DNA of 64,000 nt from Beverwykella pulmonaria (taxonomy: Eukaryota > Ascomycota > Dothideomycetes > Pleosporales > Melanommataceae). Made by a program: the position numbers and the translations under genes. Within the stretch, counting starts at the first letter, position 1, and every line of letters starts with the position of its first letter. The DNA lies in assembly GCA_001599595.1 (NCBI GenBank), contig BCHH01000012.1, forward strand, positions 375,543 through 439,542. The letters run 5' to 3'. This document shows, one piece after another, positions 30,362 through 34,393 of this stretch. The notes beneath the pieces are model-generated. The model worked only from the letters and a program-made list of their open reading frames with translations. It was not told the DNA's origin and ran no database searches.

Positions 30362-31503
30362 ATGCTCTTCTCAGCCTCAAAGCTCCTCCTAGGAGCAGCT
30401 TGCTTGTTCGGCATCGTCCGCGCCCAAGACGACTGTAGCGAAGGCCCGTGGCAAGATGTCTCGTGGACTGGTGGAAGCGGCGGAGGCCGTTTCTGCGCCA
30501 CCAAATGGAAGGAGGGTGTTGTTGTCACGGGTGTAGAAGTATGGGCCAACGACAAATCAGTCCGCGCTGTGCAGTTCTATTACTCCGATGGCACAAATAG
30601 CCCACAGTGGGGCAAAGTCGATGGCGATAAGCACGATCGCCTTGATTGGGATCCGTCTGTTGACGGTATCAGCCAGATCAAGACTTGGGGCAACGGCAGG
30701 GCAGAGTATCTTGGCCGGGTGTACATCCGCACGAAGAAGGGCGCTGAGGTATGGATCCGTAGCTTGAGGTCTCCTAAAATCCACTAACAGTACGTCAGCT
30801 CGACGTTGGGAAAAACACTGATGGCCAAGACACCTTCGAGACAGACGTTGCCTCCGGTATCATGCTCGGAGCCTTTGGACTCTCTGGTGACGTAATCGAT
30901 GCCATGGGTTTCCTCTTCCTCAAGTCCAAAATCAACAAGATCACCATCGACGACGTGGTCTTCAGCGAAACCCCCGAGATGCTGAATGCCCGCATGGAGG
31001 GCCTGCAGACTGTCATCCTCGACTACGCGGACCACACTAATGATAACACTGCCGCTACCGAAACCTTCACTTTTGGAAAGACTGACACGAAGTCTACTAC
31101 AAAGTCTTTCTCCAACACCGCGACGCACTCTTTCGGTTGGTCGGAGGCTGTTGAGCTCTCGGGCAAGATCCTCGACCTCGGTGCTAGCTCGACCACAACA
31201 CTGAGTTACGATTACTCCAAAGCTTCCACCGAGGAGTCTTCTCAAACCAACACCGTCACCCTGACCTACAGCGTTGCTACAACCCTTGCACCAGGACAGC
31301 GGACCTTCTGCAGAGCTACTGCTATGAGCGGTACCTATAAGGGCGACTACACCTCGACTGTCAACATCTGGCTTGAAGATGGCACTACTTTCGGTTTCGC
31401 CCAAGGAGGAACGATGGAACAGGTCAACTGGAGCAAGGCTTCGTCCGTCTGCCAGGACAACGAATTCCCGCCGGAGAAGAGGGGTGTTAAATTCATCGCT
31501 TAG
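30362..31503 (+). CDS. Secreted protein with jacalin-like and aerolysin-like parts
   Basis: Two exons (30362-30748, 30799-31503) encode 363 residues. Residues 1-22 form a clear signal peptide ending GIVRAQ. The N-terminal part (about 28-135) resembles a jacalin-like beta-prism lectin: a glycine-rich SWTGGSGGGRF start and repeated strands such as VVVTGVEVWANDKSVRAVQF. The C-terminal part (about 190-345) is rich in Thr and Ser with alternating strands (ETFTFGKTDTKSTTKSFSNT and LTYSVATTLAPGQRTFCRA), as in the aerolysin/ETX-MTX2 pore-forming superfamily. Proteins with this layout bind sugars and can insert as oligomeric beta-barrels; in fungi they are thought to defend against grazers or competitors. 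Activity here is not proven. Four cysteines outside the signal peptide could form disulfides. Confidence 0.75.
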
Positions 31504-32934
31504 AGCGATTATACCCGCCCTTAAAAAAGGCCTTGCGTGCTGCATGTCGGGAGTTTACTTGTACATTTACTCTGAACATAGGATTTCGTTAGGCTTTTGG
31601 GATGGCCTGCGGGCCAGCTTCGATTCTATTTCATATTTAGGGACCTATTAAATTCTATTTCTTTTTAGCATAGAGAGTCTCTGGAGTTCAAAGCAGTTTT
31701 CACCTCTTAGAAGATTGTCCATGAGGAAACAATGCTTGTGCAGTATCTCCATTCCGATCTATCAAAGTGCGGCAAGTCCACAGTCGATTCCAGTCATCAA
31801 AACACACTAAAGATTTCCATATTTTAATGTTCGATCAAGTCTTGTCCTGAACTTCTGAAACAATCTCTATATTCATGTCCGCCCTTGAATCCTCTTCGTG
31901 ACAGGAAACGCAAAGTCGGTTTAGAGTGCTGACGGAAAAAAATTTGCACATGGCCTTGCAGCCGAGTAAGATGTCTATTCTTTATTGTGTTATTTTGCAA
32001 GAGGACTAACGCAGACGCAGATTAAACGGGGAGACTAAGTATTCTTACAGGATGTTTCATCTGAAGAAGTTAACGGGAATTTCTACGGGTGTAAAATGGA
32101 ACCTTGTTTCCGTAGCTGTGGGATTTCCTTGATAAAATCGAAAATCATACAAGCGTCTTTCGGATGCACTCATCAAGTTGTCCATAACGCTGTCATATTT
32201 CGTCCTCTCTATCATCGCCATTGCGTAGGGGCACGCCAAAGCTTCATCGGCTCAACCATCCCGCTGAATTCAAGGATATGTATAGGCGGATACAGATCTT
32301 CGGATGTAAGCATGAGTTAAGGAGATTTGGTGGGTTTAGGGGCAAGGCGAAAGCTTGCCAATGTGAATTGGGTATATCTTTGGTTCGCGTGGAAAATTTG
32401 GCTTCTTGTAGATGACTGAGAAATCCTTGCTGTAGCACTCAGTCCGGGTAGGACATTCGAGGTAATAGAAATGGTTCCCCCCTCTTTGAGACTTGTTCTT
32501 GTTGAATGTGTTTATTATATTCAGGTTGTTGCTGAAGTGTAGTTGTGTGAGTTTCATCTTCCTTTGAACAGAAACGCATCTTAGCAAGGAGTAAAGCTAA
32601 GACACTTAAACATAATGCTGCAGCGTAATTCAACTACGTCTACTCATTACCTCTTAACTTTTCTGCTGAAAGGATGGACCGATACCTCTATGCAAAGCGG
32701 AAATCTTTAAGAGTAGGTCTACACTGCCCAGGCAGTAATACTACTGGCAGCCCTAGTAAGTAAGAGTAAGAGAGAGGCTTAACAGTGATTTGGAGATAGA
32801 AAACAAAGGTAAAGGCAGAAAGCCATTTTGAACATGCTGGTTGAGGTATTCTTGGTGGGTGATGTGCTGGCGTAGTGAGCGGTTAGGCTAATTCCGCCCA
32901 GCTAAAGAAAGCAAAAAACTGGTATCACAACGGC
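31504..32934. other. Intergenic spacer
   Basis: No gene is recognised between the secreted lectin and the tRNA gene. Short frames on both strands (for example 32096-32440) lack any motif. Confidence 0.5.
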
Positions 32935-32939
32935 AAAAA
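32935..32939 (-). terminator. Pol III terminator of the tRNA-Lys gene
   Basis: On the minus strand a run of five T bases lies seven nucleotides after the discriminator base of the tRNA, as expected for a Pol III terminator. A longer T6 run follows further downstream. Confidence 0.7.
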
Positions 32940-32946
32940 GGAATAG

Positions 32947-33101
32947 AGCCCGATGCGGGGGTCGAACTGAATGCTAAGTTAGTAGAGTTCTTTGAGTACA
33001 GGATGTAAGGCAAACGTACCCCGCGACCTTGAGATCGCGATTGGATCAATCTTCTGACAGTGCGTAAGAGTCTCACGCTCTACCGATTGAGCTAACCAGG
33101 C
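32947..33101 (-). tRNA. tRNA-Lys(CUU): tRNA-Lys(CUU) with two introns, one ectopic and spliceosomal-like
   Basis: On the minus strand the gene starts GCCTGGTTAGCTCAATCGG and ends CCCGCATCGGGCT. The acceptor stem has seven pairs (GCCTGGT/ATCGGGC, two of them G-U). The D arm and A box TAGCTCAATCGG are normal. The anticodon loop reads CTCTTA with CUU in place, and is interrupted after position 37 by a 29-nt intron (33036-33064) that contains AAGA, able to pair with the anticodon side, as usual for tRNA introns. A second insertion of 53 nt (32967-33019) separates the T stem GCGGG from the loop TTCGACC and stem CCCGC. Removing both leaves exactly 73 nt with a perfect T arm. A TATA-like TTTATATATCTC lies 34-45 bp upstream. 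Without spliceosome-type removal of the second insertion this would be a dead gene. Confidence 0.9.
32967..33019 (-). other. Spliceosomal-type intron in the T arm of the tRNA
   Basis: The 53-nt insertion begins GTACGT, contains the perfect branch-site word TACTAAC twelve bases before its end, and ends GCATTCAG. Exact GT...AG excision joins GCGGG to TTCGACC. Its length and signals match the mRNA introns of neighbouring genes. Because it ends in CAG, the B box across the junction still reads AGTTCGACCCC, only one base off the GGTTCGANNCC consensus. Confidence 0.85.
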
Positions 33102-34393
33102 TTCTAATTGATTTATGTTAACTTTTAGAAAAAAGAGATATATAAACAGAAAAAAATTGTCGGAGAAGGGAATTTTCGGCAGGCGCCACATGTGTGGGTC
33201 AGGGGCGAGAATGCACGCATCATCGGACCGATAAAAATTACCCGCACGTCCCAGAATTATCCGAGCGCTAACAATGACTATCTTGTTCCGCCCAGCATTT
33301 GCTAAATCTTCTCTTTAATACAATTTCAGTAACATCACTTTTCACCCATAATCTTGGTGAATGCGGACCTCAAGATGACATCGCGGCATCGAACTGGCAA
33401 AAGGCAAACCTTCAAAGGCGCATCGTACTGTCAGCTAAAGCTGGCTATTTAAAGCTCCCGCGGTCGTCTAATGTGACTTCGCGATGCACACCAATTGAGG
33501 CAATTCACATATGTAAGCCCGAGAGAAAACTACCACAAGCTATGCCGCTTCACGATCATGTACCAAGTGCCAAGCACCACCAAGGCGGAGGCTGCAAGCT
33601 GTTCTTTTGAAATGGCTGACGGGGGAGCTCTTGGCGGCAACGCAGTCTCAAGAAGGGGAATGCGGCCAATAACCAGCAAAGGCAAAGTTCCATGCCTGCG
33701 TTGAACGACCCGCTATACAGAGCATGTGGGAATCTGAAACATATTCAGTCGTAATAATGCTTTTGTTATAAGATGTGCGTTTTGGCAGAATGCGAAGATG
33801 TGCAGACTTCAGATTTCAGATGTGGCTCGGCAGGGCGACGTCAGCGAGCGCCGCGCAAGCCAATAACGCTCACTGTCAGGAGAAGCAGACTGATGCCGTC
33901 GCAAGACGATGTGACGTATACGCCGCCTTACACGGCTCGTTGAATGATATTCTGAATTACTGGAGTTGCACTTCGAGCTTGCTGTAATTAGCTTTGTTGC
34001 CCAGCTGCGCCAGGACCAGGCACTGCCTCTAGGGTCTGTGCCTTACCCTGCCTCCAACCTTCAACCTCCCCAATCCCCCGACATCCACGAATATCACACC
34101 ATTCACCCCCGAAACTCCCCAAACACCGTCGCTCGCTGCCATTATACGTATACCGCAATTACCTCTCCTGCCGGTTCGCCGAGTCTATCTCTGTCTTCCG
34201 AAACGCCGGCCAGGCCGCGGAGGCTGAGCTCCTCGTCGAGAAACACCCTCGGATTTCTACAGAATCACCCCATAAACCCGCGGCGCGCCCACAATAGTTA
34301 CATTAAAGGAGAGGAGGAGCGCTTTCTACACTGTCTGGATGAATTTGGTGGAAACAAAAGAGTTGCGCGAGGACAGATTCCAGTTAGACAAGC
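33102..34393. other. Spacer between the tRNA gene and DRS2
   Basis: The first 50 bp hold the TATA-like region of the tRNA gene (minus strand). The last several hundred bases are C-rich and probably form the promoter and long 5' UTR of the flippase gene. No other gene is seen. Confidence 0.5.

Follow-up and report, generated by a model that had tools for sequence, protein, structure and literature searches.

The tRNA-Lys(CUU) gene located in the 64-kb stretch of DNA analysed here (the window) raises the question of whether the spliceosome can process the precursor of a nuclear tRNA. In the textbook view, introns of nuclear tRNA genes occur at one position and are handled by a protein endonuclease, and spliceosomal introns are known in Pol II mRNAs, in the Pol I rRNAs of some ascomycetes, and in U6. 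A preliminary description of the locus had reported a 53-nt insertion that carries GTACGT, TACTAAC, and a terminal CAG and whose exact excision, together with that of a 29-nt anticodon intron, leaves a 73-nt tRNA. The insertion was confirmed from the sequence (32967-33019, minus strand). ARAGORN found no tRNA in the 64-kb window and none in the uncut Lys locus, and Rfam at the gathering score found no tRNA in the window; when the 53 nt were removed, ARAGORN reported a tRNA-Lys(ctt) of 73 nt with a 29-nt intron after position 37, which bears out the excision product described earlier. The gene and its signals are arranged as follows.

32947..33101, minus strand: tRNA-Lys(CUU) gene of 155 nt; contains two introns, which differ in kind (sequence and ARAGORN)
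32967..33019, minus strand: GT-AG intron, 53 nt, at the junction of T-stem G53 and T-loop T54 (copy without the insert on contig C5; splice signals)
33014..33019, minus strand: 5' splice site GTACGT (sequence)
32978..32984, minus strand: branch-point motif TACTAAC (sequence)
32967..32969, minus strand: 3' splice site CAG (sequence)
33036..33064, minus strand: ordinary anticodon-loop intron, 29 nt, after position 37 (ARAGORN)
33139..33144, minus strand: TATATA, 43 nt upstream of the tRNA-Lys gene (sequence)
32935..32939, minus strand: T5 run, likely Pol III terminator (sequence)

In the Lys insert, 11 nt follow TACTAAC and 12 nt follow its branch A; in the numbering taken from the ARAGORN drawing, G53 ends the T stem and T54 opens the T loop. 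The insert combines GTANGY at its start, CTNAC 8-32 nt from its end, and a terminal AG, a combination found in 2 of the 127,894 53-mers of the window (both strands). Both GTANGY and CTNAC occur in 37 of the window's 12,635 stretches that run from GT to AG over 47-72 nt. Self-splicing of the group I or II type was rejected for this insert: no such Rfam match was obtained within 32850-33200 at E<=10, the one match in this region being a chance match of another kind (E 6.2), and its 53 nt are too few for such an intron. A Pol II host gene was likewise rejected as the source of the window intron, since the plus strand carries both of the nearest frames of at least 200 aa (end of one at 31503, start of the other near 34388); a minus-strand non-coding RNA may have been its source.

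The genome searched (G000, 45.6 Mb, 31 contigs) contains a second tRNA-Lys(CUU) gene (G000:C5:2977690-2977791(-)), which lacks the 53 nt and is identical to the joined window gene over 102/102 nt, the anticodon intron included. A G is present at both edges of the insert, which can thus be slid by one base, and GT-AG ends appear in only one register. Because the uninterrupted paralogue is identical at 102/102 positions, the edges of the insert are fixed to one base without any assumption of GT-AG. A 20-nt pattern from the 5' half of the Lys gene (up to 3 mismatches) matched eight places in the genome, with fewer than three mismatches only in the two Lys(CUU) genes. The tRNA-Ser(GCU) gene described below also has an intact twin, which is identical to the joined gene at 80/81 positions. 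The 40-nt flanks of the Lys twins are unrelated (15/40 and 18/40 identical), those of the Ser twins share 14/40 and 11/40 positions, and in both cases the likeness between the interrupted and uninterrupted twins is confined to the gene itself. The preliminary description had counted several intact tRNA-Lys(CUU) copies, with decay of this locus in relatives, against its reading; half of this holds, and for Lys alone, in that one intact copy is present.

In total, nine mRNA-type introns of 47-72 nt were identified in seven tRNA genes (Lys-CUU, Trp-CCA, His-GUG, Ser-GCU, Thr-UGU, Leu-CAG, and Leu-AAG), at sites in the acceptor stem, D arm, variable arm, and T arm. The six genes other than the window gene are listed below.

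tRNA-Trp(CCA), contig C1: 52-nt intron at 53/54 (pattern search and ARAGORN)
tRNA-His(GUG): 72-nt intron at 53/54 (tRNA family search and ARAGORN)
tRNA-Ser(GCU): 49-nt intron in the variable arm (tRNA family search and ARAGORN)
tRNA-Leu(CAG): 54-nt intron in the D stem, after G10 (tRNA family search and ARAGORN)
tRNA-Leu(AAG): 58-nt intron in the acceptor stem, between 6 and 7 (tRNA family search and ARAGORN)
tRNA-Thr(UGU), contig C10, 238 nt: introns of 51, 55, and 47 nt in the D loop, at 25/26, and at 53/54, respectively (second pattern and ARAGORN)

None of the nine inserts is located at the canonical position 37/38, where a separate intron is present in the Lys, Trp, Thr, and Leu-AAG genes (of 13 nt in Thr-UGU). 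Four of the seven genes carry an intron at the junction of the T stem and T loop (53/54); patterns specifying this site led to two of them. The first of these patterns matched four places in the genome (one in the control), including two tRNA genes, the window Lys gene and the Trp gene; the other two places were dropped because they looked like coding introns by eye. A second pattern, combining an intron at 53/54 with a T-run, gave 14 rows at nine distinct places, with 3 control rows; it recovered Lys, Trp, and His again and added Thr-UGU, and the remaining five places were dropped as they did not read as tRNA genes. The tRNA family search of the genome, in which 63 of 1174 candidates were scored, gave 32 matches. 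The Trp intron and the third Thr intron were thus found by patterns requiring splice signals, and the other seven of the nine were picked without such a pattern, namely that of Lys (preliminary description), those of His, Ser, and both Leu genes (family search), and the first two of Thr, whose gene was chosen for its third intron.

Together with 28 genes called by ARAGORN, which contain at most an anticodon-loop intron, 35 tRNA genes are in view; these are a partial sample and no census, as interrupted genes score badly and most candidates were unscored. ARAGORN calls none of the 28 genes Phe, Tyr, Cys, Asp, or Pro, and such genes may have stayed hidden among the unscored candidates or be interrupted too. 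One gene (G000:C9:1461389-1461503 (-), locus L025) is called tRNA-Glu(ctc) by ARAGORN and reads by eye as a tRNA-Leu(CAA) gene whose long anticodon intron lacks GT-AG ends.

All nine inserts start with GTANGY and end with AG (CAG in seven, TAG in one, and AAG in one), and a G precedes the insert in eight of the nine. CTNAC is present near the 3' end in seven; the other two, both in the Thr gene, have CTAAA and ATAAC. For comparison, 28 coding introns were collected whose removal joins reading frames, motifs being part of the criteria for their selection; their sizes range from 44 to 138 nt (median 59.5), versus 47-72 nt for the tRNA inserts, and the 5' sites common to both groups include GTACGT, GTAAGT, and GTAGGT. 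Among the branch motifs of the coding introns, CTGAC (9) is more frequent than CTAAC (4), whereas CTAAC accounts for four of the seven CTNAC motifs of the tRNA inserts. In their terminal GT and AG, their 5' sites and branch motifs, and their likeness to coding introns in size and signals, the inserts agree with U2-type introns.

Upon removal of the introns, ARAGORN draws a cloverleaf for all seven genes. In a blind test, 42,251 GT..AG excisions yielded 19 distinct joins spanned by a tRNA; in 10 of these a tRNA is already called in the uncut stretch, and they were set aside. The remaining nine correspond to the Lys, His, Trp, and Leu-AAG genes, some with shifted edges, whereas the control (58,664 TG..GA excisions) yielded 14 joins, with two left, both at the His locus and of wrong sizes. 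The Ser and Leu-CAG genes are missing from the nine joins because their uncut forms are called tRNA-Leu by ARAGORN, and the Thr gene requires three excisions for joining. When the branch motif was required (2196 excisions), only four loci were recovered, those of Lys, Ser, His, and Trp. The joined genes retain their acceptor, D, and T stems; in the anticodon stem, the ARAGORN drawings show an A-C mismatch at 31-39 in Trp and a T-C mismatch at 27-43 in His. From the Leu-CAG gene left uncut, ARAGORN likewise obtains a tRNA-Leu(cag), one that is shifted and poorly paired; by reading, the intron of this gene splits the A box.

Signals for Pol III were found around the interrupted genes as well. 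TATAWA is located at -90 to -20 in six of the seven interrupted genes and 16 of the 28 ARAGORN-called genes, compared with 157 of 4000 random window sites, and at least four T residues occur within 30 nt downstream in 7/7, 26/28, and 341/4000, respectively. In all four genes with an intron at 53/54, Lys included, the last G of the intron restores GTTCGANNC, the B-box core. The Leu-AAG gene, the one without TATAWA, contains TTTT inside its intron, which may hinder Pol III. With a cloverleaf in 7/7, a TATA-like box in 6/7, and a T-run terminator in 7/7, as in nuclear tRNA genes of the Pol III type, the interrupted genes look alive from their sequences.

A further genome search (E<=1) used the joined Trp, His, Thr-UGU, Ser-GCU, and Lys-CUU genes, both Leu genes being outside the query, and gave eight candidates, all of which were scored. 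Lys and Ser were each represented by an intact and an interrupted copy, with a further Ser gene at 78% identity, and no uninterrupted Trp, His, or Thr-UGU gene was found in this search, which returned their interrupted loci only. The tRNA family search, with 63 of 1174 candidates scored, also contained no uninterrupted Trp or His gene. Because tRNA-Trp and tRNA-His are indispensable to every cell and only interrupted loci were found, the Trp and His introns would have to be removed. If the assembly is complete and other copies are not too broken up to be found, intron removal is needed for Trp, His, and Thr-UGU. One SSU pattern (up to 3 mismatches) detected no rDNA unit, its single match in the genome being a fragment, and the assembly is therefore probably incomplete. 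A fragment of 18S rRNA of about 36 nt is located in unrelated DNA near G000:C11 991035-991059, minus strand (L052 about 2024-2059).

The U6 snRNA gene of this genome (G000:C3:4042637-4042737 (+), locus L057 about 1500-1655) also contains an mRNA-type intron, of 55 nt (GATGACA|GTAAGT...AACTAAC...CAG|CGCTC). On its 3' side, the U6 gene is followed by a long T run and then by a downstream B-box-like GGTTCGAATC. In S. pombe, U6 has an mRNA-type intron that is removed by the spliceosome and is thought to have arisen from reverse splicing (PMC10484740). Both there and here a Pol III transcript carries an mRNA-type intron, and U6 is interrupted in the present genome too; however, U6 is a part of the spliceosome, whereas tRNAs are not, and are folded and exported. 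Spliceosomal introns have also been described in ascomycete nuclear rDNA, most of all in that of lichen fungi (Cubero 2000 and Bhattacharya 2000, as cited in PMC11889510), and in lichen fungi the spliceosome excises introns of Pol I rRNA, also after transfer into yeast rDNA (PMC8527467). These resemble the tRNA inserts in being short mRNA-type introns in a structural RNA that is not made by Pol II, but their host is a Pol I rRNA and not a Pol III tRNA. Among the matches listed, no report of spliceosomal introns in nuclear tRNA genes was present in the titles and abstract openings of open-licence PubMed Central, and the stem 'spliceosom' is absent from the text of the review PMC4090602.

From this sequence evidence, it is very probable that the seven loci are working nuclear tRNA genes that have gained U2-type GT-AG introns of the mRNA type, which the spliceosome removes. 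Because the splice signals are its own, the spliceosome is the natural candidate machine, and we infer both that the inserts are removed and that the spliceosome is the remover. In the mechanism proposed, Pol III would transcribe the tRNA gene straight through the introns, the spliceosome would take out the GT-AG introns by two-step lariat splicing as usual, and the short anticodon-loop intron, where one is present, would be cut separately by the tRNA splicing endonuclease; the joined product would then fold and mature. The suggestion in the preliminary description that the spliceosome may process a tRNA precursor appears much strengthened by the six additional genes, the recovery of only interrupted Trp, His, and Thr-UGU genes, and the U6 intron. 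As for origin, we tentatively propose, giving it somewhat less than an even chance, that an excised intron was reverse spliced into a nuclear pre-tRNA and then copied back into a gene. Reverse splicing into a pre-tRNA followed by reverse transcription and gene conversion would leave the pattern seen in the twins, the Lys gene keeping its anticodon intron, and ordinary conversion between tRNA genes would leave the same pattern.

The interrupted genes might instead be dead, with the working Trp, His, and Thr-UGU genes absent from the assembly or missed by the searches. The Lys and Ser loci, which have intact twins, could indeed be dead, and the probable incompleteness of the assembly, the fraction of candidates scored in the family search, and the anticodon-stem mismatches in Trp and His also speak for this explanation. 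Nevertheless, the search that recovered all known Lys and Ser copies and the relative at 78% gave only interrupted Trp, His, and Thr-UGU genes, the acceptor, D, and T stems and the upstream and downstream signals are kept, and dead genes are not expected to contain only inserts with splice signals; the explanation is thus highly improbable.

Slightly less probable still is that the inserts are tRNA-type introns at odd sites and are substrates of the tRNA splicing endonuclease. Nucleomorphs and Cyanidioschyzon provide the model: their tRNA genes have introns in the D arm and the T arm, with as many as three in a single gene (PMC4090602), just as in the genes reported here. According to that review, introns in Guillardia are 3-24 nt in length, bulge-helix-bulge (BHB) motifs guide removal in Cyanidioschyzon, and the eukaryotic endonuclease locates its site by measurement at the anticodon loop; section 5 of the review describes such introns without mention of GT-AG. 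The 4-pair central helix of a BHB motif was found in none of the nine present introns in either register (three pairs at best), and the enzyme needs no GT, CTNAC, or AG, yet GTANGY and AG are present in 9/9. The third alternative, and the least probable, is that the inserts are copies of a multiplying introner-like element, an idea that was also raised in the preliminary description. Such elements represent spliceosomal intron gain in Dothideomycetes (PMC4457414), the class to which the present genome appears to belong, but the present inserts are mutually dissimilar: the window insert, compared with the genome, has no other match at E<=10, and the other eight, compared with each other and with the U6 intron only, show no likeness beyond chance (best pair score 8 among the ten introns, with shuffles giving 7 at 95% and 11 at most). 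An introner-like origin is thus unsupported.

It is likely that the spliceosome is an essential tRNA-processing machine in this fungus and that tRNA-Trp, tRNA-His, and tRNA-Thr(UGU) at least are made only via the removal of mRNA-type introns. There would then be a second nuclear tRNA-splicing route beside the endonuclease, acting three times on one tRNA, and translation would be tied to spliceosome activity; the range of spliceosome substrates would extend to small and tightly folded transcripts of Pol III. The uninterrupted twins, of which that of Lys is an exact match, display the empty site in genes that have no reading frame and make intron gain testable. More such tRNA genes are likely to exist because tRNA finders miss them, and the present case is a warning that essential genes can be lost by these programs.

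Two protein-coding features of the window may be added. The frame at 30778-31503 (plus strand) scores 20.7 bits against the ETX_MTX2 pore-former family, a weak match that falls short of the Pfam value of 22. Among the best 120 of 829 matches, the RAI16-like protein of the window has its best named relative in Zopfia rhizophila CBS 207.26 (77%) and two metagenomic or genomic relatives at 88-89%; the named fungi closest by this protein belong to the Pleosporales.
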